A stretch of 64,000 nt of DNA from Blepharisma japonicum. Its lineage: Eukaryota; Ciliophora; Heterotrichea; Heterotrichida; Blepharismidae. The position numbers were made by a program, and so were the translations under genes. Numbering within the stretch: position 1 is the first letter of the stretch; each line of letters starts with the position of its first letter. The stretch covers positions 62,001 through 126,000 of the forward strand of contig CATKHK010000064.1 of assembly GCA_949751835.1 (NCBI GenBank). The letters run 5' to 3'. Under the pieces are notes generated by a model. That model did not search any database. It had not been told where the DNA came from and worked only from the letters and a program-made list of their open reading frames with translations. Below are positions 18,434-55,800 of the stretch, one piece after another.

Positions 18434-18895
18434 ATGGTAAAAGTGGCAATTCTGATAGCACTTTCTATTGCTGTTTTAGCTGTTAAGCCCAGCTTATTAC
18501 AACAGGAAGAAACATTAACATCTGGAGGATGGGGCTGCCCAGCTGTGGAAACCGAAACAGTAGAATTTGACGAGTGCGTTACAACAAGACAAGGGTGCCC
18601 TGGACCTCAAGGTTGCCAAGGACCTCCAGGATGCCCAGGCCCACAAGGTCCTAAAGGACCTCAAGGATGTCCAGGACCAAAAGGACCTAAAGGACCACAA
18701 GGAGATCAAGGAGATGAAGGCCCACAAGGATGTCCAGGTCCACAAGGATGCCCAGGACCACAAGGACCACAAGGATGTCCAGGCCCACAAGGTCCTACAG
18801 GCCCAAAAGGTTGCACAGGCCCAAGAGGATGCAGCATTAAAATTATAGAATATGACGATGATGATTGCTCATGTGAAGAAGCTACAAACGCTTAA
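18434..18895 (+). CDS. Secreted collagen-like protein D
   Basis: A 153-residue protein with signal peptide [19 protein letters not shown], a short linker with two Cys, 27 Gly-X-Y triplets ([16 protein letters not shown] to GPRGCS) and an acidic tail DDDDCSCEE. It is the most Cys-rich helix of the family, with GCP/GCQ/GCT triplets in many positions. Predicted role as for the other members: a short, heavily cross-linked secreted rod. Confidence 0.9.
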
Positions 18896-19389: not shown

Positions 19390-19851
19390 ATGGTAAGAGT
19401 TGCATTTTTAATAGCACTATCCATCGCAGTACTGGCTGTTCAACCTAATTTACTACAGAATAAGCAAGTAGCAGCAAGCTCAACCAATCAGGCGTCAGTT
19501 GTTGCAAACGCCCTTAATACTCCGCTCGTTAAAAATACAGCTCCGGTAAAAGGCGGGTCACAAGGCTGCCAAGGTCCGGCTGGCCCTCAAGGTCCTCCAG
19601 GTCCACAAGGCCCACCAGGCCCTCCTGGTCCACAAGGTGATCAAGGATGCCCAGGACCACAAGGAGACCAAGGTGATCAAGGATGTCCAGGACCAAAAGG
19701 GCCTTGTGGACCTGCTGGCTGCCCAGGACCAAAAGGGCCTACTGGATGTGTCGGAGTTCAAGGACCTAAAGGATGCACAGGACCAACAGGCGATAGAGGA
19801 TGCAAAGGAGTAGTTGTTAACGCATGTGATTTCTGCGAATGTGATGAATAA
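19390..19851 (+). CDS. Secreted collagen-like protein E
   Basis: A 153-residue protein with signal peptide [19 protein letters not shown]. The linker (to about residue 55) is Ser/Ala/Asn-rich and lacks Cys, unlike A-D. I count 28 Gly-X-Y triplets from [12 protein letters not shown] to GCKGVV. The tail is CDFCECDE. It is the last gene of the C-D-E group and converges with the TPR/IQ gene, 105 bp apart at the stop codons. Confidence 0.9.
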
Positions 19852-31894: not shown

Positions 31895-34800
31895 ATGGAT
31901 AAATCCAACGAAGCAATTATTCGAAATATTGTTGTACAGCTCACGAGTGCAATCCAGAGGCAATTTACAGAGCAGCAAAAAATCCAATCGCTCATGTCAA
32001 ATCTTAATTCACTTCTAGACCAAACTTTTGGAATAGAGCAAACTAAAGAACTTTTAAATTCGTTAACATCCAATGAAGATCCCGGATTTCAGCCTAGATG
32101 CCTTGTATTGGCCATAAAAGTGACTCTGATTCGGAAGAAACTTCAAGTGAAGAAAGTCAAATACGCTTTCAATTTAATTAGATGCCTTTATAGAGATTTT
32201 AAAAGAGAATCCACAATTTATGGAAATTCGTTGTCTATAAGTCGGCCTATCAGTTTGTTCAATAATTCCCCAGAAAATAAAACCAAATTTGTTGATATAT
32301 TTGATGCTAGCCCAGGTAAAAGTATGGATTGCTTATTTAAAGATTTAAGCCAGTCTGCTATACATATCCCAAAATTAAAACAAAGGAACAAAGACATCGG
32401 AGAAGCTTGAAAAATTCAAAAAGAAAAAGCAATGAAAGGTAGGTTTTTGATGTTTTGGCACCAAAAAATGCTGGCTAAAAAATTCAAAAATTTAGCCTCT
32501 TTGAACAACTGTAATAAAATTTTTAAAAAATGTATGGGAAAACATTTCAATAACTTTTTGCAGTCAGGAACTAGAAGAGCACGATCTCTATCATCGCTTT
32601 CAAGGGTGGTCAAGCGAGCAAATAAACGAAAATTTCAGTCTCCATTCAATTTCTGAAAAAGAAATAATGATAAACTTTCTTTAAAAAGATCGTTTGATAG
32701 CTTCAATTTTGCTTCTCCTCTTATAAGCCCAATATATTCACTTGAAAGTTTGCCTAAAACTTGGATTTCCCCACAAAATCCTAATAAAGAAGAGCTAAAA
32801 GAAGCTCCAAAAATTCAAGAAAGTCCTAGTAAAACGAATAATTTTGCATACTACAAATATAGAACAGTAAAACCAAATAAAGCAAAGACTGAAGAAAGTG
32901 AAAGTTTGGTTAATAAAGGTATGAACAAGCCAAATATTAATGTATCATTTGAATATGACCCTGAAAAAGTAAAGCCAAACGAGCCTGCTAATTCTAGACA
33001 AATTGAAGATTCTCCGAGACGTCTACAACTGTCTAATAAGCCAATGATCCACGAGCTACCAAAATCAGGCATTTGTTCTCCAAATTTATTATCAGTTGAA
33101 GCAACGCCTCGATTTAATATAAAAAATGAAGAATTTAAAAATCAAAACCCAAAAAATCCAGAAGATATTATTGGAGCTGTAGAAAACAGCATTTTATCCA
33201 AAATTAATCAGCTGGATCAAATAGATAGTTTAAGACAGTCTATAGAAGGTGACTTTAATTTTACAGAAGAAAGCTCTGACATAAATCCTGAGCTTAGATC
33301 CCCAACTAACGATCCAGTTAAAGATCCATTAAAATTTCCTAAAAATAAAAATCAGCCTTCAAGTCAACGATATGGAGAAGATGAGATTAATATAGAAGAA
33401 AATTTCTTTGACATAGAGCCAGATTCTTATAGCTCATCAGATAAGGTAGAGTCAAATGAGATGATGAATAAAGATCAACCAAAAATAGAGGCTAGGCAAG
33501 ATATGAAAGGTCCTCAAAAACTGCATGAAAAAGGCGATTCTGAAAGAAATGTATCAGATAGTCCAAAAGAATCTGCAAATGAAGATGTAAAACCAATAGA
33601 GCATTCAAAAAGAGCTGTTAACCCTAAAATTGACATAATATCTGATAAGCCAGATATAAAAGAAGAGGTTGAAAATTTAGAAAGGCAAGTTCCAAAAATG
33701 AGAAGACCAATAATGACCCCATATAAAAAAGAAAAAGCATTATTTAGCGAAAATCCTGCAATTAAAGACGAAATTCTTATTGAAATTCCAAAAAATGATC
33801 TAGGAAAAATAATCTCAGATGTGATGCTTAAAGAGGATGAATACAGTTCAGATCCTCAATCCAATAAAAAGGAAAATGATCTTCCAAATCAATTATCAGA
33901 AAATAAGCCAAATTTTGATGAAATTCCAAAAATCAACCAAGAAAAAGTATGCTCAGATATAGAATATGAAGGAGACGAATGTAATTCGGATCCCCATATT
34001 GATGAAAATTGAAATGATTCCTTATACCAATTGCCAGAAAATGAACAAAATTTTGATGGAATTCCAGAAAAGAATTTAGATATGATGTGCTCAGATATTG
34101 AATATGAAGAAGAAGAAGAAAAAGAAAAAGAAAAAGAAGATGAAAAAGAAAAAGAAGAAAAAGAAAAAGAAAAAGAAGAAAAAGAAAAAGAAAAAGAAGA
34201 AAAAGAAAAAGAAGAAAAAGAAAAAGAGGAAGAAGAAGAAGAAGAAGAAAAAAAAGAAAAAGAAAAAATAGAAGAAGAAGAAGAGGAAAAATACAACTCT
34301 AAGCCGCTAATCAATGAAACGGGATATCATTCCTCAAAGCAATCACCAGAAAATAAATCAAATTTTGATGGAATTCCTGAAAAAAATTTAGAGATGATGT
34401 GCCCAGATATTGAATGTGAAGAAGAAGAAGAGGGAAAATGCAACTCTAAGCCATTAATCAATGATATGGGATATCATTCTTCAAAGCAATCACCAGAAAA
34501 TAAATCAAATTTTGATGGGATTCTTAAAAAAAATTTAGAGATGATTTGCCCAGATATAGACTGTGAAGAAAAATGCAACTCTAAGCCATTAATCAATGAT
34601 ACTGGATATCATTCTTCAAAGCAATCACCAGAAAATAAATCAAATTTTGATGGGATTCCTGATAAAAAATTAGAGATGATTTGCCCAGATATAGAATGTG
34701 AAGAAGAAGAAGAAAAATGCAACTCTGAGCCATTAATCAATGATACGGGATATCATTCTTCAAAGCAATCGCCAGAAAATAAATCAAATTTTGATGGGAC

Positions 34801-37800
34801 TCCTGAAAAAAATTTAGAGATGATTTGCCCAGATATAGAATGTGAAGATGAAGAAGAGCAATGCAACTCTAAGCCATTAATCAATGATACAGGATATCAT
34901 TCATCAAAGCAATCACCAGAAAATAAATCAAATTTTGATGAAATTTCAGAAAAAAGCGGCCCATCTTTAAAACATGAAGAAGATAAATACAGCTCTGATC
35001 CCAGAATCAATGAAAAAAGAAGTTGTTCTCCTAAAAAATTATTGAATAATGATCCAAATTTTGACGAAATTCCTATAATTAATCAAGATGTTACTTCAAA
35101 GAGCCCTAAAAAGCCTGAAAAAAGGATAAAATTAAGATCCAAAAGGCCACAAGAAGATATAAAATATGATCCAGTAAAGCTTGAGCAAGAAGATTATGCA
35201 GATACTCAAGAAGTAAAAGTAAATAATCTGGGTCAAAGTGTAAAGCAGGATAAAATTCAGCCAATTGGAATAGAAATTCAATCTGAAAATAGGATTTCTG
35301 GCTTTGATCTTAATGAAAGACCAATTCTTGAGCAAGATTTTTCTAAAAGAATAAGTAAATCTTCAAAAAAAGCATTAAGATCAGCTCCCGATAAAAATAA
35401 AACTATAGAAGGAGAACAATGGAAGGAAGAAATTACAAATAAGCAATCAAATCCTATAGAAAATTTGATAAATAAGTATGAAGAAACTAAAAAGCCATCT
35501 GATAGCTCATCAATTGAAGAGAAAGAAGACCAATCAGAAAGTTCAAACCAAGAGCATGAAAAATATTTACCAGAAAAAAAGCTAGCATCTATAGAAAATC
35601 TACCTGGCACTCAGTTATCAAAAGGAGAAGAGCATTTGCCTTTAGTCCAGGCCGAAGCTATAGATCAAAATCCATTTGAAGCTGCTCAAAAACTATCAAG
35701 TGAAGATTCCTTAAAAGAATTATCTTTTGGAGCATCTATAAATGAGCCAAGTGCAAAGAAAACAAGAAATCTCTCAAGAATCCCCAAAATCTCTTTACAA
35801 CTTCTAGAAGACTCAAACCAGCCTGAAATTCAATCTTCCCCACGAGATCCTGACTATAATGCCCCATTGCATTCTCAGTCTGACCCCCGATCCTTGCCTA
35901 GCACTGCAGAAAACACCAAGCGAAGCCCTAGAGATCCTTTAACCCCCAAATCTAAAATTCCAGTAAGAAAGCAAGTACGATCTCGGACTGCAACACAACG
36001 AAGCTCAAATGTTTTAAATTCTCCACGAGAAGAAAAATCAGCTGAAAAAGTAGCTAGCCCTCAGCTTAATAAAAGCTATGTTCAGATTTTTGAAAATAAA
36101 AAAGAGTACTACCAAGAGAAACAAAATAAAGCAAGATGAAGTAAAGAACACTATTCTAAAAGTAAAAGTTTAGGCTATCTTCACAAAGAGTCAATGAATA
36201 ATCCGGAAACACCCTTAAGAAGTGATAGAAGATCGAGCATATTTATAGAAGAAAGAAAAAAAGATGATACAAAAGATAAAAATGACAACGAGCTTGTAAT
36301 GCCTGAATTCAGTGATTCTCCGAAGAAAATAGCTGAAAAACGAAGAAGAAGTAAAAGTGATTTATATATTCCATCAGATATACAGTCCAAAGAATTTTTA
36401 AATCAGGCTGAAGTTCCTGGCAGAGCTAATATCTCAAACCCAACCAAACTGCGCAGAGATAATTTATCAGGCTCCATCAAGTCAGAAAATCCTACTTTCT
36501 CGAGTCCTATCAAATCTGGTAGAGATCATTTAACTGGCTCAACCAAATCAGAAAAAGTTAGATTTGCAAGCCCCATAAAATCTGAAGGAGATACTTTTTC
36601 AGGTTTTATCAAGCCTGGTACAACAGACCATCCAGCCTTGGTTTCTGAAGAGGAAAAAAGTAACATAAAAAATAAAGATCAGAGAAATCCTTTCATTAAA
36701 AACCAAAGCTCAGGCAAAGCTAAAAAGAAAATATCTAAAGAAATATTTGAAAAAGAAAAAGAAATAAAAAATTCTCCAATTTTATCTGACCCTTTTGAAA
36801 CAAATAAACAAATTGAAGAAGATACTCCAATTCCTATTTCAGAAAAAGAGATCTCCATATTTGCTGAAACTTCAGTTAATAGTCCAGGAGAAAAAAATAC
36901 ACAAAGAGAGTCTTTAAGTTATAAGGATAAGGGAAAAAAAAGAAAGCCTAGAGATTCTTCTATTACTCCTCTAAAAGACGAAACAAAAACCTCAAGCAAT
37001 CCTTTAGCTTCAAAAGAAGGCAATGTGGATAAGCCCATTTCTTCTCAAGACAATAAAGTCAATTTATCTAACAAGCAAAAAACATCTAACGATCCTCTAG
37101 TTTCTTTTAAAAAAGAAGAAAATAAAGTCCAAGTAAATCAATTAGCTCCTGCACAACAGGGTAAGACAATTACTCAGCCAGATTCACAAATTTCTGTTCT
37201 TAATGAAGAATTAAGCATCCCAACAGTACTTTCAGCTTATGAGCCTAACAAAGAAACTCAATCTACAAAAAATCCACTAACTTTTCCCCAAAAAAGAGAA
37301 GTAAGCGCACCCACAGATCCCTTTGCTTATCTTTCAGGTAAAGAATCAAAAAAACCTTCAATTGATACTAAAAACCAAGGAAATTTGATCAAAGACTGAA
37401 AAGAAAAAAGCGAAGCCCCAACTGATCCTTCAATGTCAATACCAAAAGTAGATGCTTTTACTATAGATCTAATAAATGATGAAGAAGCACCTTACCAAGC
37501 ACAGGGGAGAGGAAATAAAAAAGCAGATCCTTTTATTAATAAGGAAAAAGTAGAAGGAAAACCAACAGCAGATGCTTTAAATAAGGAAAGAGAAGAAGGA
37601 CAAGCAGCAGATTCTTTTCTAGAATCCTCAGAGAAAGAGAAAACTAATAAAGATTCTTTAGATTATAAGCCAGTTGAAGAAGAAAAAGAAGAGCAAACAG
37701 CAAATTCTTTTCTAGAATGCTCAGAGGAAGAAAAAACTGATAAAGATTCTTTAGATTATAAGCCAATTGAAGAAGAAAAAAAAGAAGAGCAAACAGCAGA

Positions 37801-40800
37801 TTCTTTTCTAGAATCCTCAGAGGAAGAGAAAACTAATAAAGATTCTTTAGATTATAAGCCAGATTCTTTTCTAGAATCCTCAGAGGAAGAGAAAACTGAT
37901 AAATATTCTTTAGATTATAAGCCAATTGAAGAAAAAAAAGAAGAGCAAACAGCAGATTCTTTTCTAGAATCCTCAGAGGAAGAGAAAACTAATAAAAATT
38001 CTTTAGATTATAAGCCAGTTGAAGAAGAAAAAGAAGAGCAAACAGCAGACTCGTTTCTAGAATCCTCAGAGAAAGAGAAAACTAATAAAGATTCTTTAGA
38101 TTATAAACCAATTGAAGAAAAAAAAGAAGAGCAAACAGCAGATTCTTTTCTAGAATCCTCAGAGGAAGAAAAAACTGATAAAGATTCTTTAGATTATAAG
38201 CCAGTTGAAGAAGAAAAAGAAGAGCAAACAGCAGATTCTTTTCTAGAATCCTCAGAGAAAGAGAAAACTGATAAAGATTCTTTAGATTATATGCCAATTG
38301 AAGAAAAAAAAGAAGAGCAAACAGCAGATTCTTTTTTAGAATCCTCAGAGGAAGAGAAAACTGATAAAGATTCTTTAGATTATAAGCCAGTTGAAGAAGA
38401 AAAAGAAGAACAAACAGCAGATTCTTTTCTAGAATGCTCAGAGGAAGAGAAAACTGATAAAGATTCTTTAGATTATAAGCCAGTTGAAGAAGAAAAAGAA
38501 GAACAAACAGCAGATTCTTTTCTAGAATCCTCAGAGGAAGAGAAAACTAATAAAAATTCTTTAGATTATAAGCCAGTTGAAGAAGAAAAAGAAGAGCAAA
38601 CATCAGATTCTTTTCTAGAATCCTCAGAGGAAGAGAAAACTGATAAAGATTCTTTAGATTATAAGCCAGTTGAAGAAGAAAAAGAAGAGCAAATAGTAGA
38701 TTCTTTTCTAGAATCCTCAGAGGAAGAGAAAACTGATAAAGATTCTTTAGATTATAAGCCAGTTGAAGGGAAAAAAATCCCTGAATCCCATTATTACCCA
38801 CAAAATGAAGAAAATATAATGCCTGGATGTCCTTTATATATACCAGAGAAGAAGAAGAGCCTAATAGATGTTTACTCAAACCAAGATCCTAAAACAAAAG
38901 GAGATAAGAGCTTGCCTGAAGAGTATTTAGTTCATAAGCCAAAAGTGGAGAATAAATTACCTAAAGATTTTTCAAAGCCAAAAAATGATAAAAAGAACTC
39001 TAAAAGCATTAAAAAGCAAAAAGATGAAAAAATTCCAGATAAATATAATGAAGAGCAAAGAGATGAAAGCACAGCACCTGAAGGTAGAAAAGAGTTAAAA
39101 AACCTTAAAAGTCTATCTGAAGACATTGAAGATCCAATAGAAGAAAGTGATACTTTCGAGGAAGTTGAGCCAATTGATGAAAATTGCACTTTTGAAGATT
39201 CTGAAGAAAGAAAAATTATTACTGTGAATCCAATAGAAGAAATTAGAAAAACTAAAGGAACAATGCCATCAAGTAAGCCAATTGAGGATGTGGCAAAGCC
39301 TTCAAAGATAATAAATGAGATGGAAAGTGATAGAAAGCCCAGGGCAGATAATAAATTAACTGAGAGTATCGTAAAGCCAGCAGAAAAACTCAAAACAACT
39401 AAAAATAAAGTCAAAAAGCCAAAAGAAGATATCACAAAGACAAAAAAAGAAATTTACCAAGCTAAAACTATCACAAAGCCAGAAGACGATAATAAGTTAA
39501 CTGAAGATATCCAAAAACCATCGAAAAATATCAACTTGGCTAAAGATGACCCAGACCAAAAAGGCAAAAGGAGGCAAATGGACGCTCAAGTCAACTTGCC
39601 AGAGGATATTAATAAGATAAGTGCAAATCCAAAAATTAAAAGTAAATCAACTGAAACTTTAACGAGCTCAAGCAAGACGGCCAATGAAAATTCAAAGGCA
39701 AATGAAGAAACCAAACTATCTGAAGCTTTAATGGATTCAGAAGAAGGCACTAATGAGGAGGACAGCGGAAGTGCAAAGCTATATGATAAAAGGAAATTCG
39801 CCAAAGCTACAATAAGTCCACAAGAAGATATAAATGTAACAAAAGAAATAAAAAAACCAGAAGAAGCAAGTAAATTAACTGAAGATAAAATGAATCAAAG
39901 TAAGGGCACTGAGATAGAGAAGGAGACTCAAAAGCCAAAGAAAGAAAATAAATCAACTGAACCCATAGCTTACTCAAAAGATTTTATTAATAGCACAACC
40001 AAATCAATACAAAGGCCAAAAGAAGAAAGTAAATCACCTGAAGCTATAATTGACTCAAGAAAGAATGCTAATGTAAAGGCCGAAAAAAGTGAAGAAAGCA
40101 CACCAACTAAAGACATAGATGACCCAATAGAGGTTATTAAAGAAGCAGTTAAAGAAAGTGCGAAGCCTAAGGAAGAAAGTTTAGCAACTGAAAGAAAAAT
40201 AATTCCAAAGGAGGATGATAAGAGAGTAAAACACATTGCAAAATCAATGGAAGAAAGCAAATCAACTGAAAGAATAGTGATTCCAAGAGAAGATTTTAAT
40301 GTCTCGAAAGATACTGCTAAATTAGTAAAAGAAAGTAAGCCAACTGAGGCAATAATGAACTCAAGAGAAAATGCTCAAGTAGATGAAGATAGAGCAGAAC
40401 CAAAAGAAGAAGATAAATCAGTTGAAACAATAACAAATCCAAGAGAAAATATTCAAAAAATCAATTATACATCAAAGCCAAAAGAAGAAAATAAATCCAA
40501 TATGGCAAAAATAAATTCAAGAGAAGATATTAAAAGAGCTCAAGATTCTCCAAAGTCAGAAAATAAAAGTAAATCAACTAAAGCAATAATAAATCCAACC
40601 GAAGATATTGAGTCAGATGAAGACATAACAAAGACAAATTTTGAAAATAAATGAGGCGAACCTGCTATAGATCCAGAAATAGATAGAGACAGTTTAAAGC
40701 CAAAGGAAATAAATCAATCAGCTGAATTCATTGCAGAATCAAATAAAGGCATTAAACAAATTAAAAAGAATCCATCTAGAACTATAATGAAGCAAAGAGA

Positions 40801-43800
40801 TGATATTAAAATATTTGGAGATAGAGCCAAACCAAAAGAGGAAGGCAAATGGACAGATACTATGATATATCCTAATTCTGGACTCAATTATCCTCAAGAA
40901 GATTCTGATTTATCAAATGCTGATGAGCCCCAAAGAAAAAATAAGGCAACTAAAGGCACCTCAAAGCCAATAGAAAAACTTGAAATAAATAAAGATATCA
41001 CAAAGCCAGTAGAAGAAGTTAAGACAGGGTATGACATTATTGAAACATCAGATGGAAAAAAGCCAAAAGAAGCTACTATAATGACACTAGTAGAAATTAA
41101 GAAAATTAGCTCTATCCCAAGCGTAAAAGAAGAATTTGGAATTAACGAAGATATCACTAGCCCAGAAGAAGGAATGGAAATGCCAAAAGAAACTACTAAG
41201 CCATTAAAAGATTTTGATATTAAAAGAGATAGTACAGAGCCAATAGAAGAAAATAAGGCAGCACAAAATATTGAAAATCTATCAGAGTTTGCTGAAGGGG
41301 TTTCAATTAAAACTACAAAAGATATTGAAAAGCCAGTAGAAGAGCTTGGAATAAATAAATACAATGCAAAGCCTATAGGAGAAACTAAGCCGAAAAGGGA
41401 TAAAGTAAAGCAAAAAGAAGAAAATCAGGCAGCAAAAGATATAGCAAAACCAGTAGAAGAATTTAATATAACTAAATACATAAGAAAGCCAACAGAAGAG
41501 ATTGAGACAGCAAAAGAGATAGCAAAGCCAATTAAAGGGCTTGGAGCAAATAAATACAATGCAAAGCCAATAGAAGAAATTGGGACGGCAAATGATATAG
41601 CAAAACCAGTAGAAGGACTTGAAATAAGTAATTATATTCCAAAACCAATAGAAGAAATCGACGCATCAAAAGATAAAGCAAAACAAACTAAAGAATTTGG
41701 AATAAAGAAATACGCAGCAAGACCAATAGAAGAAATTAAGGCGTCAAAAGATATAGAAAAGCCAATAGAAGAGTTCGGAATAAATAAAGACATCACAAAG
41801 CTAACAGAAGAAAATGATAAATCAAAAGTTATAGCAAATCCAAATAAATTACTTAGAATAAAGAAAGATAGCTCAGCGCCAATAGAAGAAATTAAGCCAC
41901 AAAAAAATATCGCACAGCCAAGAGAAGAAACTAAGGCAAGTAGAGACACTGAAAAACCAACAGAATTTGGATTAAATAAATCTATAGCAAGCCCAGAAGG
42001 AGAAATTGAGACAGTAAAAGATATCACCAAGCCTCAAGAAGAGTTTAGAGTAAATAAAGATGCTACAAAGCCAATGGAAGAAATTCGAGCAGTAAATAAT
42101 TTTGCAGAGATATCAGAAGAAAAGAAGGTAGCTGAAAGGGCTGATAAGCCAAATATAGCAGCTGAAGACATCAAAGAACCAGTAGATGAAATTAAGGAGG
42201 CAGAAAGAATCAAAAAGCAATTAGATGAAATTAAGGCAGCTGAAAGAATCAAAAAGCCATTAGATGAAACTAAGGCAGCTGAAAGAATCAAAAAGCCATT
42301 AGATGAAACTAAGGCAGCTGGAGAAATCAAAAAGCCATTAGATGAAATTAAGGCAGCTGAAGGAAACAAAAAGCCATTAGATAAAATTAAGGCAGCTGAA
42401 ACAATCAGAAAACCATTAGACGAATCTAAGGCAGCTAAAGGAATCAAAAAGCCATTAGATGAAATTAAGGCAGCTGAAGAAATCGAAAAGCCATTAGATG
42501 AAATTAAGGCAGCTGAAGAAATTAAAAAGCCATTAGATGAAACTAAGGCAACTAAAGGAATCAAAAAGCCATTAGATGAAATTAAGACAGCTAAAAGAAT
42601 CAAAAAGCCATTAGATGAAATTAAGGCAGCTGAAGAAATCAAAAAGCCATTGCATGAAGGTAAGGCAGCTGAAAGAGTCAAAAAGCCATTAGATGAAACT
42701 AAGGCAGCTAAAGGAAGCAAAAAGCCATTAGATGAAACTAAGGCAGCTGAAGAAATCAAAAAGCCATTAGATGAAATTAAGGCAGCTGAAGAAATTAAAG
42801 AACCAGTAGATAAAATTAAGGCAGCTGAAAGAATCAAAAAGCCATTGGATGAAACTAAGGCAGCTGAAAGAATCAAAAAGCCATTAGATGAAATTAAGGC
42901 AGCTGAAGGAAACACAAAGTCATCAGATGAAATTAAGGCAGCTGAAGAAATCAAAAAGCCATTAGATGAAATGAAGGCGGCTAAAGAAATCAAAAAGCCA
43001 TTAGATGAAATTAAGGCAGCTGAAGAAATTAAAAAGCCATTAGATGAAACTAAGGCAGTTGAAGAAATCAAAAAGCCATTAGATGAAATTAAGGCAGCTG
43101 AAGAAATCAAAAAGCCATTAGATGAAATTAAGGCAGCTGAAACAATCAGAAAACCATTAGATGAAGCTAAGGCAGCTGAAAGAATCAAAAAGCCATTAGA
43201 TGAAATTAAGGCAGCTGAAAGAATCAAAAAGCCATTCGATGAAATTAAGGGAAGTGAAAGAATCAAAAAGCCATTAGATGAAACTAAGGCAGCTGAAGAA
43301 ATCAAAAAGCCATTAGATGAAATTAAGGCAGCTGAAGGAATCAAAAAGCCATTAGATGAAACTAAGACAGCTGAAACAATCAGAAAACCATTAGATGAAA
43401 TTAAGGCAGCTGAAGAAATCAAAAAGCCATTAGATGAAATGAAGGCGGCTAAAGAAATCAAAAAGCCATTAGATGAAACTAAGGCAGCTAAAAGAATCAA
43501 AAAGCCATTAGATGAAACTAAGGCAGCTGAAAGAATCAAAAAGCCATTAGATGAAACTAAGGCAGCTGAAGAAATCAAAAAGCCATTAGACGAAATTAAG
43601 GCAGCTGAAGAAATCATAAAGCCATTAGATGAAACTAAGGCAGCTGAAAGAATCAAAAAGCCATTAGATGAAATTAAGGCAGCTGAAGGAAACAAAAAGT
43701 CATCAGACGAAACTAAGGCAGCTGAAGGAATCAAAAAGCCATTAGATGAAATTAAGGCAGCTGAAGAAATCGAAAAGCCATTAGATGAAATTAAGGCAGC

Positions 43801-46111
43801 TGAAGAAATCAAAAAGCCATTAGACGAAATTAAGGCAGCTGAAGACACAAGAAAGCAACCGCATAAAATTAAAGAAGCTGAGGATACTACAAAGCCAACA
43901 GAAGGGAATCAAGCAGATAAAGAAATTTCAAAACTAAAAGAAGATATTAAAGAAGAATTCTTAAAGCCAAAAGATGATGATAAGGAAGAAGAGGATGGCA
44001 ATAAGTCTGAGGATATAATGAATCCAATAAAAGAGAATAAGATAATTGAGCAAGTTGAAGGACATAATCCAACTAGGTATAGCTCAAAGCAAATCGAGAC
44101 GGAGAATATTATTAAAGGTTCAAAGGCAGACTCTCCTGAAAAATTAAACCTCCACACGGAGAAATCAGATCTTCCAATACAAGCTTCTAAGGCTGTACAA
44201 GAGCTGCCACAAACAGTAAACGAGCTTCAAAAAACTTTACCAATTGAAAGCGAGCGCTCTAAGCCTAAATCTGTGTCGTTCATCGTTGCTCCGCTTGAAA
44301 ACCAAATTGATATAGAGACAGAAAAGCGTATCTCTAAGACACCCCTAAAGCACACCTCAAAAATTCCAGTAAGATCTAGCAAACCTCCTGAAACAGAAAA
44401 ATTCGTTGTGCTTTATGAATCAAGAGGAGCGGGACTAGAAGGAGATTCTAAAAAAATAAGGAAGTCCACAGTTAGATCGAGTAAGCCACCACCACCGCCA
44501 CCGCCACCACCAAAAGTTCCTGAAACAGAAGATACTGATTTATCTAGCAAAGCTTCCGAACCTTTAAGCCGTTCAAAATCGCAACCTCTTCGGTCAAGCA
44601 AACCCCGAGGGCCTGAAGATGTCCTTTCTGACTCTAATTTGCAAATAGCCATTGCAGGTGTTCTTGGTGATTTATTGAGTTCCATAGTAAAGCGAATTCA
44701 CCACAAGTATAAGCAAGCTGCTTGGAAAAAACTTGATAAAACCCAAATCAGTAATATGTCAAAGCTTGACTGTATTAAACTTGTTATAATGCCTTTATGG
44801 ATTAAACTAGTACTAAGGGGAGCTTTTGAGCAGTTCAAGTTAAATGGAAGGCAAAGCATTTTTGCTAAAATTGCTGATAGCTTTGATTCAAAGCTTGTAA
44901 GCCCAATTTCAGATGATGATTCGCCAATAGAGCCAATTGAGCAGGGGAATAATTTTAAAGATCCAGATGTCCTTGAAGAAGTAAATCTTCCAGGTACAGC
45001 TGTACTATCAAAAAATAAAGGACAGAGCCTTCGCAAAAGTAGAGAAATATCAACTGTATCTCAACCTCCTTTTCAAATTTCTCCACAGCAAAAAGCTAGT
45101 CAGCCTATAAGTGGCAGGATTTCACCAAATTTAATTCAAACAAGCAATGAAACAGCCAAAATTGAGCCAGACAAAACAAATATAACAAATAAAGAAAAAG
45201 AAATAAGGAATCTTTTTATTTTAAGAGCAGCAAATCTATTATCCACAATTTTAAAGAAAACAATAATAAAGCAAGAAATCAAAAATTCATTAGAAGCTAT
45301 AAAGAATTATGAACAAAACGTAAAAATCTCTCAAAAGGTTCATCGTTTTGCACAAATTCTTATTAAACTCTCGCTTAAGCCCCATTTTGATTTAATTCTC
45401 AAATCACCAAAATCAACTCGTGCTAATAAAACTAAAACTCAACGTCCAAGATCTCAGTCATCTAGTAAAGCTAAATCAAGCTCTCTCAGTAAAAATGTCC
45501 CGATAAAGCTTTTAACTAGTAATTTAAGGGGTCAAATTAAGGACAACCTGAGTTTTGCATTTCAGAGAATTTTAAACTTCTCCTCACAAAATTCTCCATC
45601 ACAAGATAGAAAATCCCAAAGCAGGCCAAAAATTATTGATCGCCGGAATACCTTGATTTTTGAATTCCTAATGCAGAAAACTGTGCAAATTTTACAGTTC
45701 AGACTAAAATCCTCTGCGTTTAAATATATTCAAGAGTCAAGTGTTTTTTCATCAAACTACCAAAAATATAAGCTTGGGCTTCGAAATGGGTCAGAAATTT
45801 TATCTATTGCGTCGCAGCCTCAATCAAAATATCAAAAATTAAAAGATGAACTTTCATTTATTAAGACATCAAATAATTTCCATCAGAAACTACTAGAGAC
45901 CTTGCCTACATCAATAAGCACACCATCAATCCACTCAAGGAAAAGCTCTTACTTCAGCCCAAGAGTGATTTTACCTCCTCCTAAAGATATTCATGATTAT
46001 ATCAATGATTTCATTGAGCTTTCGAGAGAAAAGGTTGAAGCTTCCTATTTGTCGAGTCCTTCATCAAGAATGACTTCAAGAATGTCTTCTCCAACAAGGA
46101 GATATTATTAA
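31895..46111 (+). CDS. Giant charged repeat protein, 4,738 residues
   Basis: One 14.2-kb frame with six TGA codons read as Trp (32408, 32654, 34010, 36137, 37397, 40652); I count six TGG as well. No TAA/TAG or intron occurs. The N-terminal ~260 residues are basic and helical (TLIRKKLQVKKVKYAFNLI; MFWHQKMLAKKF). The middle is extremely Glu/Lys-rich. It holds a Glu/Lys tract, five copies of a ~46-residue repeat, thirteen copies of a 31-residue repeat, old ~22-36-residue repeats, and about 43 copies of a 13-residue repeat (KKPLDEIKAAEEI). A nine-Pro run precedes the C-terminal ~490 residues, which are basic with helical segments (IAGVLGDLLSSIVKRIHHKY; LFILRAANLLSTILKK). I do not recognise the family; a filament or linker scaffold is a guess. 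Confidence 0.85.
34106..34290 (+). repeat. Polypurine Glu/Lys-coding tract
   Basis: The coding strand is almost pure purine; 34142-34268 is 127 bp of uninterrupted A/G made of GAA and AAA codons with EKEKEEK periodicity. Such homopurine runs can form triplex DNA. Confidence 0.85.
34291..34975 (+). repeat. Five ~46-residue tandem repeats
   Basis: Five units, each starting CNSKPLIND.GYHSSKQ and continuing PENKSNFDG....LEM.CPDIECE, with acidic runs of variable length between. Related remnants occur just before and after. Two Cys per unit are conserved. Confidence 0.85.
37590..38770 (+). repeat. Thirteen 31-residue (93-bp) tandem repeats
   Basis: Units read ADSFLESSEEEKTDKDSLDY then KPVEEEKEEQT; the fourth unit lacks the linker. 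In the middle of the array KPVEEEK and KPIEEKK versions alternate, a 62-residue higher-order unit. Copies are highly similar at DNA level. Confidence 0.9.
42169..43860 (+). repeat. About 43 tandem 13-residue (39-bp) repeats
   Basis: The consensus is KKPLDEIKAAEEI, with variants E/R/G at the charge positions and occasional EPVD, SSDE or KPLHE units. Length changes are all multiples of 39 bp. The reverse strand is open over the same stretch, an effect of the repeat. Confidence 0.92.
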
Positions 46112-46802: not shown

Positions 46803-49800
46803 TTAATAATCAATATTCAAAACTAACGCAACTCCTTGCAATATCCAGTGAGATTGATGCTCATCTGTCTTCAAATCTGCCTCAAACACCAACCCTCTGC
46901 CTGCTGCATTTCTTCTAGCTTGAGTAACATACACAGGAGTTTTAACAGTCCCTCTAAGTTTCACCTTATTTGCTTCTTCAGGTATGATTTTCATGACTGG
47001 CATTTCGAAAACCAATTCTTTAGGATCTTGCTTCTTTATGCATTTATTTTTAGAGTCCCATTTAGCACCTTCCAAATAAAGCCCAGAAATATATTTCCCA
47101 CGCTTTGGATTTTTCTTGACTTCGTCTGCAAATTTGAATTTCGTCACTTTGGTATATAGTGTAGATCTATCTAAAGCCCATGTGTTATCTCGACAAGTTT
47201 GCTGCACAACTGCAGTTAAGAAAGACTCAGGGATGTGAAGCCCACTTAACCACATAACTCTAGGCTCGCCTTCATCTCTCCACTTCCGGTATTGTTGGTC
47301 TCTCTTTATGAAGAAGGTCATCCATGCACTTAAAGGTTTTTCAGTTTGGGGCGATAACCTTGCCCAAGGCTCAGGCAAAAATCCGTTTGTTAGGGAAAAA
47401 GCAAGTTCATCAAGCTCGCTACTCATACCAATTTCTCCCCTGAGTGCTCTAGCTAGATTGCTGAGAGTGCTTTGCATGATGATTAAAAGGTTATTAAACC
47501 TTTCTATTTCTTGTAGAAGAACAACTTGGCTAGGCTTGAGATTTTCGCCTAATTGCTTACGCATTGCAATCTGGTCATAGATTTCAGGTATTTTTGATTG
47601 GATATCAACAATTATGGACTGTAGGTACTCGTCTTTATTTCCACCAGAGGCAGAAGTAGCTTCTGAAGCCATAGACAGGAGGTTTACCCATAATCCTTTA
47701 GTTGCATTTGTGAAGTAACCAATTTCTGCATTGGTGTGGAGTCCGAAGACTTCTGGGGAGTTTAGAGTGGGCAAGGCTAAAATTGAGCTGCTGTAAGAAT
47801 CATAAGTTCCTTCGCTAGGAATTGTGTAATGGTAGCCACTTTTAGAGAAGAAAAATGGCTGATTTGTGTCGAAAATGAAATTGCCCATATATTCATTAAG
47901 ATAGGTAGTCAAAACTCTTCTATCGTAATCATCAGTAACTCTTCCTCCATACATAGCTTCTCCAATTAAATATTTCAATGAGTTCCAAGGAATACTATCA
48001 TCTTTTTCTCTAAAAGCCTTTCCTAAATACATAGAAAGCAGTCTTAGCGAAATTTTGAAGTCACTGTCATTGAAGTCATAGCTGACATTCCATCCAATTT
48101 TTCCATACTTCTTCCTATCTTGCACTACAGCATGATAAAATGTCAAGACATAGACCAATGGCTTAAATGCAGGGTGTGGGCACTCTTGCAGCTGATCTTC
48201 ATTTACTTTTCCAAATAATGACCTCATGTTCTGCTTTAGACCATCTGGTGGTTCAGTAACTATTTTTAATGATTGCTGCAGGATACTTAATGGAAATACA
48301 TCAGTAGGCTCTGTGGTCAGCCAAAGCCTGAAGTCTTGATGAGGCTTTGAAATTTGCTCAAGTTCACGTTCAAGCTCCTTCATCCAGTTTTTCAGCAGAT
48401 GGCAGTTTTGAAGCATGACCCAGTGGCCTCTTTGTGCACCTGTCTTTAGATACTCTAAAGCGAGATTCCCCATTCCTTGCCCCAATGCAAGAGGTTTGAA
48501 TTTATTTCCTGTAAAGCCTTTCAGCTCTCCTAGCTTGGTAACATCACTTAAAGGATCTGCACCTGGGGACAAAATGAATACGACTGGAGAGTTTGGATTG
48601 GTCTGCTCATAAATTTTCTCATATATTGGTGGAGGTGGCATAATATATAGCTCATTTTTATGCTTTTCTACAATGAAATTTTTGATTCCGTTATAAACTC
48701 TGTCAACTCTAAATAGCTTAAGTAAACATAGTTTTCCTAGAGGTGTCAGGCTATCATAACCGCATGGGATAGGCGCTCTTTCTGGAGTTTCTAAGTCATA
48801 CCATTCTTTCCAAGTTTTTTCATTGTTAAGTATATCTTCTCTAAGTCTAGAAAACTTAGTGTTCAAATCTATAATCCTTTCAAGGTCTTTCCAGCCTTGT
48901 TCAGGCATCCACGCGAAAGGTTTTTTCATAGCGACTTGCTCCAGAGAGGTATTTCCTTTTAAGAAAAAGTCATATTCTTTATTATCAATTTCTCCGTCGT
49001 GTTGCATAATCATGATTGTCATATGGAAGGAAAACATGATTTTATGCTTTTCAAAGATCCCTAAACAAGTATAGTTATAAACATTCATAGTCAGTTTTTC
49101 AATAATGTTCTTTACTCTTGTCACAGTCATATTATCCTTTCTGGCATCTCGAATAGACTGCGTAAACACCTGCAGATAATTCGCTAAAGAATACTCATAC
49201 ATCTGAGAAATCGCTGATAATCCTGACATGGCGAAGAAAAGAATAGAACCTCTCAGTGCAACTGGCTGGTATGCTTGTCTGTCCTTTTCTATTTCTCCAC
49301 GAGTGATTTTGGCATTTTCTATAGCTTGAGTGATTTCAACAGTTTTTTGCTTAGTTTCTTCAAGGGTGGCGACCAAAGTGGTGTTTTCCAAAATATCTCC
49401 TTTAGCTTCGGTAAGATTTTTCAGCAAGCTTTCTTCTAACTGTTTTCTGGTGGCTTGGTTTTTGCTCATTTCAATGACAAGCTGCTTTCTCATTTCTTCT
49501 CTTTCAGGCTTTTCCAGCTTAACAACTTCATTAAGCAGCTGGTCTTCTAGTCCTTTGAGCGTGACAGTGTAATTAATGATACTGGTTTTGCTCATGATTT
49601 CAGGGGTATACTGAGGGTTTGATAGTTTTGTGGTCATAAAGAGCTTGAATTTGTCGCTCCAAACAATACTGGCACCCATCAAAGGTAATATTTTTTCTCC
49701 AGCCCTGACGGTGTAGCTTTTTTCGAGAACAGGATCTACAGTAGGATCTAATTCTTCATCAACATTTTCTATTAGCAGAGAATTTCCGAACTTGATGCAG

Positions 49801-52800
49801 TTTTCCACAAGTTTGTTGAACTTAGGATTGTTAAAAGTAGTAGTTTCCAAGTTATTTTCTTTTTCCTTCTGCTTTATCCATTTCACAGCTTGCTCTTGTG
49901 GATCAATACAGAGAGGGAATCTATTAGAATAAGTGGTCAAAATACCGTTCTGTATACTTAATTCATCTTGTGGAAGCCCCTCACTAGCCCATCTAGCGCA
50001 TTCTACATCATTGGTCAGCAGCTTTTCTATCCTATAATGCTCGCTCAATGGAACTTTTCTTTCTTTTATATCAGCTTCCCACGCTTCATACACCATTCTA
50101 ATTCTGAATTGATAATTGAAGGCGCCTGTATAGCATAAAAATGAAGATGACAACAAACAATCACCAAGGAGGTTATACTTGTCTTCGCGCAGCTGGATGA
50201 TGTCTTCAGCCCAACGCTTCTTCTCAGTCCCAAGCCCAGAAATAAGTCTTGAAGCCATATTCAGTTTCCTTTCCATGTCATTAGCTTGTTCAGTCAAATA
50301 GTTCAATTCTTCAGAAGCTGCTTTGTGTTTCGCATTCAAGTCCATGATTTCCGCTTGTAGAAGTTCTAGCTTTGCTGTGATTTCTGCAAGCTCTCTTTTG
50401 GCTTGCTCAAGCTTTTCTGTTTGCTTTTCTACTTTGATTCTCAGTGGTTCAACTTCCGTATAGGTTTTGTAGTATTTCATCATAGAATCCATCCACTCGA
50501 AAAGGTTTCCTGCTGCATCAGAGACAGCTGCAACGACTTCTTTATTAAACTCAGGCTTCTTCAGGTAGTTTTGAACCTTCGTGTACATTGCTTTGGTGAC
50601 ACTGGAGACTTGATAAGACTGCAGCACAGGCTTGCTTAGTGAAGTAAGCATAGTTTTGCAGCCAGCCCACCCTTCAGAGTCAGGAGGACAGTTTGGAACT
50701 GGCTTCAATATAAGCACACACATGCAAGTATCCATGACTGGCTGAGGAGGTTTTGCATATGTTCTGACCTCTCCGAGCTTCTTGGCATCTAAGACTTCTA
50801 AGGCTCGTTTAGCGTTTTCTAAAATAGGGCGAGCTTCTTCTAAAGCTTCAGTTGCTTTGATTTTGTCTTCAGTGATTTCTTTTTCTCTAATTTCCAGCTC
50901 ATCTTTTTTGTCTTTGACTTGCGCTTGTTGAGTTTTGACAAAAGCAGTTTTCTCCTGGAGATCTTGGATCATGCTTTCGACTTCGCTTTTCTTAATGTCC
51001 ACTTCTTTTTTCTTGACTTCAAGTTCTTTTGACATGACATCAACTTTTTCTGAAGAGTCCCTTAGCTTAACAAGCCCATTTTCTAGTCTTACTACGTTGA
51101 CATCGATTTCTTTTCGCTTGACAGCAAGCATACTGATATAGGTATTAATATAATCCAAAAAGTTCTTAGGAGTTGCATGGTTTTTACGCTTCATTGTGTT
51201 CTCAAATTCTTTAGAAAATACAAAAATCGAGGAATGGGTTTTCACAATATGCTGCTCTATATTAGGACGATGCTCTTCTGGAAGGTCTTTCCCTTTCATA
51301 AAGTAACTCGCGACACTCAAAAGAGCGTCTTCAGGCCAGCTGAAGAACCAGTCAATTGAAGTGCAGTTTACAAGCCCAGGGAAGTTTCTACATCTGATTC
51401 TCAAAGTATCTGAAGCTGGAGACATGGCAAGAACTATATGCAAGTTATCTCTAGCTTTATTAATGAAATAAGTCCACTTGATGTCCTTATTTGGATTAAT
51501 TAAACCTTCTCGCTTCATTTCGTCTTCAAGAGGTCTAACCAGTGAGTATTTTTCATCTTCTGTGTAGAGGGCAGGGACCATTCCCATTGTAAGAATATTA
51601 TTGATGAACTCTAAAAAACTTTCTTCTTTGATATGGTTATCAGTTATCAAAAACACGACAGATTTTTCTTTCAGCTTTTCAAAGAGGATTTTCAAATCTT
51701 CTTTGAAATTGATTTCAGAGTAGTTTTTAGTCAATGAAATTTGGAACAACTCATGCTCTGCTGTAAAAGCAGCAAGTCTGGTTAAACTTTGCTTGCCTGA
51801 ACCTCCAACACCTACAAGCAGTGCATTTCCACGGGCCATTCTGAAGATACGGTGAATCCTAGTGAGATGGTCAATTGCATAGTTGAAAAGCACCAAGTTC
51901 ATAGGGACTCTCTCTTCGTTGTATTCTTTAAGAAGCTTATTAAACTTATCTGTCGCGACTTGGTACTCTTTGAGATCTTCGTAAAGTCGAGCTTCTTCTG
52001 AACTATGCTCAACAGGGTCAGCAAATCTGAAATCTCCATACAGCAAAGGCTCTTGCATCGCAAACTCAGACTGCTCAGCAAAGTGCTGACGCAGAAGTCT
52101 TGGCAGGATTTCCTCAGTAACAAGGTTTCTATCAGTAAAATCAATAAGCCTATCTGCATATACACGGGTGCACTCATTTCTCCATAACTTAATAAATTCA
52201 GGAAGAGTTGAAAATACTTCATAAGTGGCCTGGAAAAGGCCTTCGAAAACTCTTGATAAGTCACGAAGGTTGAAGATGTAGTGGAATTTCACTGGAGTTC
52301 TTGGGAGCTTTTCTAAGATTTCTTTGTGGAGTTTTAGTGTAGCATCAGTTAAGTGCTCGGCTGAGTCAATGATTTCGTTGCCAAAGCTTTCTAAATGCTT
52401 GCTCAAAATCGACTTGAAAATGTGCTTTAGTGAGTCATCAGATGGGAAAGTGATGTTAAACACATTAAATAGGGATAAAAACCTTGGGTCTGTTGGAGAT
52501 CTTCCACCACCAGGTGGCTGCATTGAGCACAAATAAGTTGTATCGACCACGTGCTGCTCTTCGAGAGTTGCCATATCAAAATAATACCCTTTGTCGATCA
52601 AAAACTTGAAAAATGCTATAGGCTGTTGTGTACCATATTTATCGAAATTTGGCATATGCATGTCATCAACGAACACAATCAGTTTTGTCCCCATAGAAGG
52701 TCCAACTAATTTTCCACTTCGTTTAGCTAATTTTTCAGCTAAATTGCTCATAACATTTGCAGAAGAAGTTCTTGAGGAAAAGTTGATGTTTAGCACTTGA

Positions 52801-55800
52801 TATAAGGTTGGCTCTAAGCCTTCAATGAAATTTTGAATGGTGACTGTTTTACTTGTCCCACTTTCTCCTGTGAAAATAGTAGGGATTTTTCTAGAAATCA
52901 GCTCTGATAGAAGCCAAATGTGTCTTTCTGTATCAATAGTAGGAACTAGGATTTTGGAGAATTTTCTGTCTGATGGAAGCTCAAATCCTTTAGCTCTAAC
53001 TCTTTCTTCCCATGGTCTCCAATCTCTTAAACTTCTATCCCAGTAGTAATTAAAGTAATTTGTCGGAGGCAGTTTTCCATCTACAATGTTCTTTAAGAAA
53101 GCTTCAAATTTAGGACGATCTTCTGAGACTAAGCAAGCTCCTAATGACCAAAGCATAGCAAACACAAAGAGTGGCTCAATAAACTCAACATCAGTGTGGG
53201 AGCTGTCAGTAGGCAATAATATGTCCATCATAGTACAAAGCTGAGTGACCATGTTAAGACCACTTCGTTGAACAGCCATAGCAAGTGGCTCAGTAAAGTT
53301 GTCTTCTTCCATTTTTCCTTCTAAAATCCTCCCTATGCATCTATCAATATATCTGTTGAAAAGAACTATTAAAGTGTCGCTGATATTATTTTCTCCTTGG
53401 TCAGTCTTGCTCTTGGCCCATCTTTCATAGTAAGGCTGGTACCCTAGATCTTTATCATCAACGTAAACCATACCGCATCTAGAAATGGTGGCTGGGGAGG
53501 CATATTGCAAATCATAGACTTCGTAAAGCATAGCGCAATACTTTTCAAGCCTGATTCTTTCACCATTATTAAGTGTAAGCAGCTTATTATCGTCCATAAC
53601 GCTGTTCATGTTTTCGACCCAAAGAGCATCAACATCACCATCATACAAAATCCAACGCTTTTCTTTTTTGCCTTCTGGAATGGGCAAGTTCATTATTCTG
53701 AACAGCTTACTTAGTAGCCCATCAGTCCAATCTCTGGTTGCAGGGTCAAGTTCGCCATAAAGTTCCTTCAAAGTAATCGATTTACAGTTTAGCACGTCAA
53801 TATGGACCTTCATGTCTTGTTCTACGCCTTGATACCCATTTTTCAAAGCATAAATTACTGTTGTTTTTCCACCTCCTGTAGGTCCTACGACCATAGTTGT
53901 GTGTCTGGTAAGCATAGTTTCATGGAGTTGCATTACTTTATCTACTTGCTTTAGGAATTTTTCTTCATCTGAATGCATGAAGCCATGAGCGTTGAAATAG
54001 TTGATAACTTCTGTTTTCAAATTATCATAGACTACTCTAGGACAGTCTAGGCTTGGGAACAAATCATTGATCAAGCCCATAAATAATGGGACATCTTCAT
54101 ATACGAATTTTGGCTTATTCATATCTCTAAGTGCTCTCATTAGAACTAAATCTTCACTCATATCGGGGGAGCCTCTTTTCAGAGACCCAGCCATGACTAG
54201 CACAGACTTAAGAGCTCTTAGCCCAAAATCATAGTGATACTGCTTAGATAGCTGCTCTTGGGCTAACTTGTACAGGACAGTCATTTTTTTAGCTAAAATT
54301 CTTGCCAGGGTGAACCCTTCAGACATAAGCATAATTTCACAAATCAAGATCATATCAGGGACGACCATAGTGCAAGGCCTGAATAAGGCTTTTAAGTTGT
54401 CAGGTAACTCACTTCGGCCTGCATATCCAGGGTTCATGGTGACAAAGATTCCGACTGTGTCTACAAGAGGAATTTCTTTACCTAGCAAGTCGACTGTGTT
54501 CTTTTTAGCGTTTAATGAGTTTTGAATAGTCTTGATTTGGATTGAGATGACAGAAAGAACTTCGACGTTGATTCTGTTAAATTCATCAAAGCAGCCCCAA
54601 AAACCAGTTTGTACAAGACCACTGAAGATAGTGCCCATAGCTTGGTAATCAAGACCTTCACCGCAGTTGGTGACGACACATCTGATGGCTAAAGATTTGG
54701 CTAAATCTTTGACAGTTTCTGTTTTTCCAGTTCCTGCTGGGCCTGCTGGAGCTCCTCCAAGTTTAAAAGTAAGAGCAGTGGTTAAAGTCATGACGCATCT
54801 ATCTGTTAGTGGAGTAATGACCAATCTTCCGTTAAGCCCTTCATATTCATAACAATATTTGAACTCTCCTGTGCATTGTCTAACTACAATGTCATCTACA
54901 TCTCTGTCCCAATAAAACCTGAGCTGCGACTCCCACTCAAATTCTTTGGCATCCAATATTGAATCTCTCACAAATCTATCAACAATATCTCTAGCATGGA
55001 CATCCAAAATAATCAAGGTGTTTACTTTTTTCATCTGTAGCCTTGGCAAATCAGTCCTTACTAAGTCAATTAAAGCTATCAAATTCGCTGTCTCCTTGGC
55101 GCTTTCTTCTTTCATTGCGTGCTTGTTTCCTTCTTTTACTCTTCGGAATACATCCTCAACACTCCAAGTCCACCAAATTTGAGTGCCTGCAATGGCAACC
55201 ATACCAATATGGTCGAGGATCCATGGAATTCTTTCGCTCTCTGCATAATAATAAGTTCCTTCTTTGGTCATTTTGTGAAGGGTGTCAATCATTTCGTCAT
55301 CAAGCTTGTTCATTCAGGTTTCTACAGGGCCTTCTGGCTTTACAGAGTTTGCAAATGAGTATTCTTCTCCTTCTTCTGAAAACATACCAAGGACCATCTT
55401 ATTTCTGCTGAATTTGAGCTCTTTGCAGTTGTCATAAAGCTTAAGCATGTGTTGCTGGATATCTTCAGGATTGCTGGAACCTAAAATACTAAGAAGTTCA
55501 TCATCAGAAATGAAGTAAAATCTTGGGAATGAGCCTTTTTTGGTATCTAGATAGTTTGAAAGTCTTTTCTGGCACTGGTCTAGATCTTTAGAAATCCCTT
55601 TTAGCTCATCTTTACGCTCTTCTGGACGAAAAGCATCTTGATAACAAGCAGCTAAGACATTTGGATTTTTATTTGTATTTTCCATGAGCTTTCTGAAAGA
55701 TTTGTCAATTCTGTCGAACTTTTTGACCTCTTCTTTAAGCATAAGTCTGATATCTTCACTACCTACAAAAATGCTTTCGAGGTATTGCCATTTTCTTTGG

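Follow-up and report, generated by a model that had tools for sequence, protein, structure and literature searches.

The PEVK region of titin is a long, low-complexity charged region that is disordered and elastic. It has been described as composed of 28-residue repeats, with a length of as many as 2,174 residues in the human soleus (PMC3859903), and as containing glutamate-rich sub-motifs (PMC12295887). According to a 2021 review, the cortex of Stentor has contractile fibres of the centrin type as well as bundles of microtubules (PMC8511388), and the giant scaffolds of the myoneme are reported to bear many repeated centrin/spasmin sites (PMC12661445). Here we describe a gene for a giant repeat protein in a 64,000-nucleotide stretch of DNA from Blepharisma japonicum (contig CATKHK010000064.1, positions 62,001 to 126,000; the whole of this stretch is referred to as the window). 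We are highly confident that the locus is a single, real gene, whose repeat middle is expanded and which belongs to a family of three. Titin PEVK is its closest functional analogue; an independent origin is assumed and homology is not claimed.

The gene is, as the preliminary description had stated, a single frame of 4,738 codons; it is open from end to end when its six TGA codons are read as tryptophan:

31895..46111, + strand: whole reading frame, 4,738 residues, TGA read as Trp, TAA stop (frame analysis, mass calculation, alignment of W254)

Across the same interval the other two forward frames contain 143 + 151 and 320 + 52 TAA + TAG codons, and under the bacterial code the interval falls apart into five + strand open reading frames of at least 300 residues. 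The computed mass of the protein is 539.7 kDa (~540 kDa), which identifies the earlier label 'Giant 4.7-kDa-class' as a slip, and its isoelectric point (pI) is 5.5. Over the whole gene, codon usage in the sense frame correlates best with that of the neighbouring dynein gene (r = 0.77, compared with 0.39–0.67 for the other five frames). Reading TGA as tryptophan is supported within the family, because W254 of the giant protein, encoded by TGA, aligns with a tryptophan encoded by TGA in one paralogue and by TGG in the other. The genome searches were made in one genome, of 45.2 Mb in 224 contigs. Used as a query, three copies of CCCTAACA matched 77 times on one strand and 91 times on the other, overlapping matches being counted, as against none for the reversed control, and the listed + strand matches to this telomere repeat all lie in the first 430 bases of their contigs. 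The GC content of the window is 33.7%. The genome of Blepharisma stoltei is described as 41 Mbp long and 66% AT, with UGA as tryptophan and a telomere unit that is the same as CCCTAACA (PMC9942806). Both the genetic code and the telomere repeat fit the initial guess of a heterotrich, and together with the GC content they agree with an origin in Blepharisma or a close relative.

When the genome was queried with the N-terminal 300 residues of the giant protein, three matches were obtained including the gene itself, the other two at 42% (E = 1.6e-58) and 40% identity (E = 4.0e-49). The C-terminal 546 residues led to the same two loci through a motif of 37–38 residues at the extreme C-terminus (55% and 49% identity, E = 1.1e-5 and 2.2e-5) and gave one weak additional piece at one of them (E = 0.065). 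These paralogues, P1 (P0001; G000:C2) and P2 (P0002; G000:C74), consist of one open frame each, of 1,237 and 1,096 residues, the shorter being counted from the conserved MDKS start and P0001 being used without its last residue. With each whole paralogue as the query, just these three genes were found at E ≤ 10 (4 and 5 matches); P1 recovered the giant N-terminus only, and P2 recovered both giant ends (C-terminal motif, E = 7.6e-5). P1 and P2 are about 50% identical over the first 885 residues of P1 and then 53% identical at the C-terminus.

The giant protein, P0001 and P0002 thus have an N-terminal domain and a C-terminal motif in common, in a single open frame in each case. The paralogues differ from the giant protein in that they are shorter, basic (pI 9.6 and 9.9) and without a repeat array, and P1 and P2 have a longer C-terminal region in common. 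Tandem Repeats Finder at its lowest threshold detected no tandem array in the paralogues, the rows it returned being short and of low score (at most 49 within the genes), and self-periodicity of the two proteins was not above that of shuffles in 13 of 13 segments. The conserved parts of the giant gene are as follows:

31895..32689, + strand: N-terminal conserved basic domain, residues 1–265, 40–42% identical to the two paralogues (genome search, pN/pS)
44645..46108, + strand: C-terminal basic region, residues 4251–4738, containing short hydrophobic stretches; apart from the motif, it aligns weakly with the paralogues (alignment, charge)
45953..46066, + strand: C-terminal motif of 37–38 residues common to both paralogues (genome search)

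Over the first 100 alignment columns of P1 and P2, the proportion of nonsynonymous differences (pN) is 0.10 and that of synonymous differences (pS) is 0.71; for the N-terminal domain of the giant protein compared with either paralogue, pN is 0.35–0.41 and pS 0.60–0.83, the synonymous values being near saturation, so that no rate is quoted. The contrast between pN and pS shows that the N-terminal domain is under purifying selection. Repeat arrays can be mis-assembled, and the locus might be the product of such an error or consist of several genes that repeats have joined. We find this hardly credible, as the giant frame is uninterrupted and each short paralogue carries both ends in one frame, so that the ends belong to one family. 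Outside the ends, the giant protein and the paralogues have little in common, and growth from a short ancestor is therefore the simpler reading.

Between the ends lie the following repeats:

33842..35131, + strand: array A, eight copies of a repeat of ~48 residues, acidic, approximately residues 650–1079 (periodicity, copy alignment)
34106..34291, + strand: simple Lys/Glu tract within array A (repeat scan, translation)
36455..36619, + strand: short 22-residue repeat, about three copies, the third partial (periodicity, translation)
37586..38775, + strand: array B, 31-residue (93-bp) repeats, 13 anchored copies, acidic, residues 1907–2300 (repeat scan)
39212..42175, + strand: array C, diverged 26-residue (2 x 13) repeats, approximately residues 2440–3427, 5' limit approximate (periodicity, profile, search)
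42176..43891, + strand: array D, 44 copies of a 13-residue (39-bp) unit with the amino acid consensus KPLDEIKAAEEIK, near-neutral polyampholyte, residues 3428–3999 (repeat scan)

The copies of array A follow one another at steps of 42–49 residues, except for one step of 104 that contains the Lys/Glu tract. Scored in order against a consensus, they gave 60, 105, 175, 179, 183, 182, 152 and 49, each more than any of 300 shuffled versions of that copy reached; the three highest scores are those of the three core copies from which the consensus was built. The core copies are near-identical and the outermost ones are degenerate, with scores of 175 and 152 in the non-core neighbours and of 60, 105 and 49 in the outer copies. 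A fresh centre with decayed edges is the pattern expected from unequal exchange. Together with the array-free paralogues that carry both ends, this strongly supports the earlier proposal that the terminal domains are kept while the middle grows.

Mean pairwise nucleotide identity is 92.5% in array B (11 of the 13 anchored units compared) and 87.1% in array D (44 units), in agreement with the view that the 93-bp and 39-bp arrays are young and homogenised. For the short 22-residue repeat, periodicity at lag 22 was 0.155 against a shuffled maximum of 0.134, and 0.144 against 0.138. In array C, the 26-residue period exceeded the shuffled maximum in four of six sliding segments starting at residues 2401–3151 (0.21–0.34 versus at most 0.161); in the segments starting at 2401 and 2851, lag 26 was not above shuffles. 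A 13-residue profile derived from array D was run in register on 10 blocks. None of 500 shuffles was as good in five of the eight blocks of array C, and 3, 4 and 8 of 500 were as good in the other three; the block before array C (167 of 500) and the block overlapping array D (0 of 500) were left out of this count. Four control blocks in residues 1081–1613 gave 220–477 of 500.

A protein search of the genome with 130 residues of array D pointed to the same relationship. All 12 matches lay in the giant gene, including array C (E = 1.6e-9 and 2.7e-13), the border of arrays C and D (E = 3.9e-15) and sequence further upstream (E = 0.017 and 0.031), and all five matches to array B were also in this gene. 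We conclude that the arrays are private to the giant gene, within the best 34 (array D) and 17 (array B) candidates scored. We also conclude from these comparisons that arrays C and D are the old and young parts of one lineage, with a 13-residue unit and a 26-residue double unit. At least four unrelated arrays had been proposed, and several independent lineages are indeed present (the ~48-residue repeat of array A, the three-copy 22-residue repeat, the 31-residue repeat of array B and the 13/26-residue repeats of arrays C and D, plus the simple Lys/Glu tract), but the repeats at 39.2–42.1 kb share their lineage with the 39-bp array, as the profile and the E-values of 1.6e-9 and 2.7e-13 indicate. 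They are a diverged, older part, as had been said; their unit, however, is the 26-residue double unit and not one of '22-36' residues. On the opposite strand, beneath arrays C and D, there is an open frame of 883 residues (window 41632–44283, - strand), which is probably a by-product of the repeat, since codon usage in array D favours the sense frame (0.68 versus at most 0.51).

Constraint on the repeats was described by the pairwise ratio of nonsynonymous to synonymous change (dN/dS), which is 0.41 in array A (five copies, first 36 residues), 0.67 in array B (11 copies) and, in array D, 0.95 over 44 copies or 1.22 over the 42 core copies; as exchange spreads variants among the copies, these are not independent of one another, and the ratios are descriptive and not a test. 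Among the 116 differences from the consensus in the 42 core units of array D there is no stop codon, although 6 of 117 one-step changes would make one and the naive expectation is about six. Residue replacement in array D looks neutral, and the array looks free to change residues but not to lose the frame. An open frame and bulk composition therefore seem to outweigh residue identity. The same neutrality (dN/dS of about 1), and the fact that the paralogues manage without arrays, would also fit a tolerated expansion, in which repeats inside a disordered linker add length without function and only the ends matter. This explanation is possible but doubtful: the giant gene contains several separate repeat lineages where the paralogues have none, array A shows amino acid constraint (dN/dS 0.41) and no copy contains a stop.

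The physical character of the protein differs along its length. Its ends have no repeats and are basic, as first described, with net charges of +34 (residues 1–265) and +41 (residues 4251–4738). The accompanying statement that only the middle is acidic applies to arrays A (-64) and B (-90) but not to arrays C (-17) and D (+3). Arrays C and D together (residues 2301–3999) account for 1,699 residues, mostly 13/26-residue repeats, which are rich in Lys, Glu, Pro and Ile and have charged fractions of 0.41 (C) and 0.51 (D). Charges are mixed more evenly than in shuffles in array B (kappa 0.095 versus 0.190) and array D (0.113 versus 0.155), and all seven middle segments fall on the disordered side of a charge-hydropathy plot. 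Runs without Phe, Trp or Tyr extend for 377 and 240 residues in the arrays, and the largest repeat region is nearly without Phe and Trp. The contour length of a polypeptide is 0.36 nm per residue, so that residues 266–4250 (~3,985 residues) would measure ~1.4 um when fully extended.

The composition of the giant protein is similar in kind to that of titin PEVK: arrays C and D are rich in Lys, Glu, Pro and Ile, a Lys/Glu tract and Glu-rich arrays are found elsewhere in the middle, and disorder is predicted. In the PEVK-like segment proline amounts to ~7%, and valine is mostly replaced by isoleucine and alanine. Unlike titin, the giant protein has no Ig, FnIII or other Pfam domain at E ≤ 10. We propose that it is the largest of a family of three probable cytoskeletal linker proteins, in which the conserved N-terminal module and the basic C-terminal region with its motif would be two attachment ends. 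The middle would have grown to ~3,985 residues through repeated unequal exchange among tandem repeats, the array anatomy being observed and the exchange deduced from it. An older 13/26-residue lineage would have been partly re-homogenised into the 44-copy 39-bp array, the 31- and ~48-residue arrays having arisen separately. Being polar and charge-rich, and in its largest repeat region near-neutral and poor in aromatic residues, the middle would be expected to behave as a flexible chain of ~1.4 um contour length. The protein would most probably tether or space two cytoskeletal sites and act as a soft entropic spring, similar to titin PEVK, with the cortex as the likeliest place.

In our judgement there is about an even chance that a disordered middle, made longer by unequal exchange, serves as a tether or spacer between the two conserved ends. 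A spring role is plausible, being compatible with the composition and the predicted disorder. We infer that the site of action is cytoskeletal, and probably cortical, while holding any named location with low confidence. A fuller proposal by analogy, unlikely as a whole, is that heterotrichs have invented a titin-like elastic tether: an end-anchored protein of 540 kDa with a PEVK-like polyampholyte spring of ~1.4 um contour length would, next to the centrin myonemes and microtubule ribbons, determine how the cortex stretches and recoils passively, its length would evolve by repeat exchange, and the short paralogues would serve the same anchors at fixed spacing.

Several observations weigh against the tether and its proposed history. 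Three blocks of the C-terminal 230 residues of the giant protein are only 23–34% identical to P1 (pN 0.47–0.55), and attachment by the two ends is argued from their conservation alone. Codon usage separates the frames weakly in the joined ends (0.77 versus 0.71) and in array B (0.66 versus 0.63). Array D shows no higher-order block duplication, the longest run of matched units being 3 compared with a mean of 3.5 in shuffled unit order, so that recent large exchanges are not directly visible. Instead of growth in the giant gene, a long middle may have been lost before the paralogues split. As for flexibility, charge mixing in arrays A and C is near shuffled values and no better, and four of the seven end segments also lie on the disordered side of the charge-hydropathy plot, so that ends and middle are not cleanly separated. 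An AlphaFold prediction for a 104-residue stretch of array D gave no secondary structure and a mean predicted local distance difference test score (pLDDT) of 48.6; as the alignment behind it had 9 rows, all taken from the array, this is a weak indication of disorder. The Ala/Glu/Lys-rich 12-residue stretches between the prolines of array D could form short helices.

The repeats might instead make the protein a giant centrin/spasmin scaffold of a myoneme, of the Sfi1 or giant-scaffold type, in which they would serve as binding sites for EF-hand proteins and the array would shorten with calcium. The cell is of the heterotrich type, and the family resembles Sfi1 and the ciliate giant scaffolds (Sfr, myoneme) in having short hydrophobic-aromatic motifs at the ends, most strongly in the paralogues. 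Six patterns were scanned on six end regions (36 tests). F-x-x-[WI] was found 8 times versus 2.66 expected in the C-terminal region of each paralogue (2 and 1 of 1000 shuffles), [AS]F-x-x-[WIFL] 7 times versus 1.14 in that of P1 (0 of 1000) and 3 times versus 1.06 in that of P2 (81 of 1000), and F-x-x-W twice in the N-terminus of each paralogue (2 and 9 of 1000). Array A, alone among the arrays in having such a motif in most copies, contains 7 F-x-x-[WI] across its 8 copies, with an Asn-Phe-Asp-[Gly/Glu]-Ile core in most. A profile of the P1 copies ranked the two Sfi1-type repeats first and second in the one gene of the genome with a Pfam Sfi1 match, but 21 and 25 of 200 shuffles were as good; the same profile gave nothing above the 95% shuffle level in the middle or C-terminus of the giant protein, whose own C-terminal enrichment is marginal (5 versus 2.15, 50 of 1000). 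Of the other arrays, B lacks F-x-x-[WI], and C and D have it only once apiece, which leaves the largest repeat region almost without this motif. The three whole proteins contain no instance of the published Sfi1 centrin-binding motif Ax7LLx3F/Lx2WK/R (PMC5112337). The Pfam Sfi1 model (PF08457) likewise matches none of them at E ≤ 10, whereas in the same genome it detected, as a control, one other gene over the cut-off (C113, 28.4 bits, cut-off 22). We consider a centrin/spasmin scaffold quite unlikely. The comparison with Spirostomum-type myonemes put forward in the preliminary description fails in its specific form, with the Sfi1 model and motif unmatched and array A the only array in which most copies bear an F-x-x-I; the ends or array A may have a distant EF-hand-binding role.

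The single Pfam Sfi1 match of the genome is itself of note as a separate locus. It lies at G000:C113:20761-21018 (- strand), in a 933-residue frame (locus L021, 4104-6902, - strand), the first part of which is leucine-rich-repeat-like by eye.

No family had been recognised at the outset, and this still holds: searches of the ends and the paralogues against Pfam-A, and of the ends and P1 against PDB, gave no convincing family match, so the terminal domains did not turn out to belong to an unrelated known family. The sub-threshold matches were taken as chance. They comprise DUF6827 (E = 0.097) and AI2M-like_HNH (E = 0.31) for the giant N-terminus, YtzH (E = 0.1) for its C-terminus, Collectrin (E = 0.15) for P1 and, in PDB, biliverdin reductase (E = 0.8), uS4B (E = 0.96) and AbaSI (E = 0.04). 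A PDB match to FAP76 (E = 0.3, query residues 4–72) was also taken as chance and is at most a lead. AlphaFold predicted the N-terminal 270 residues alone as all helix, an unreliable model (pLDDT 41.4, predicted template modelling score 0.22). Literature searches turned up no title or abstract opening about this gene.

SxIP motifs bind EB1, and three S[KR]IP motifs were found in the region between the ends, each a weak lead:

35774..35785, + strand: SRIP motif (SxIP-like), residue 1294 (motif scan)
35951..35962, + strand: SKIP motif in a basic Ser/Pro-rich context, residue 1353 (motif scan)
44357..44368, + strand: third S[KR]IP motif, residue 4155 (motif scan)

The protein could accordingly be a microtubule-end or km-fibre linker, recruiting EB1-type proteins through S[KR]IP motifs that lie in basic Ser/Pro-rich stretches and using its middle as a spacer for microtubule ribbons. 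Three S[KR]IP motifs in residues 266–4250 compare with 0.39 expected (11 of 1000 shuffles), and the genome has seven loci with an EB1 C-domain over the cut-off (L033-L035 and four others), which seems many for a unicellular genome. However, [ST]xIP motifs as a whole are not enriched (5 versus 3.0 expected, 193 of 1000), neither paralogue contains one, and the motif class was picked after the sequence had been seen. We regard this linker as very unlikely.

Two further features of the window were noted. Tail to tail with the giant gene lies an apparently complete dynein heavy chain gene (46803-59894, - strand), with 4,363 residues and 4 TGA codons in one uninterrupted frame. On the + strand, five short frames (window 3710-4264, 4801-5328, 17475-17984, 18434-18895 and 19390-19851) each begin, by eye, with a signal-peptide-like start, followed by Cys-bearing Gly-X-Y repeats; the collagen parts of the 3710-4264 and 4801-5328 frames are near-identical. 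From its sequence, this cluster looks like one of secreted mini-collagens in a ciliate.

For the family described here, the same ends are found with and without a giant repeat middle in one genome, so that it can be asked directly whether selection acts on tether length. Should the giant protein prove cortical, the heterotrich cortex would have a passive elastic element in addition.

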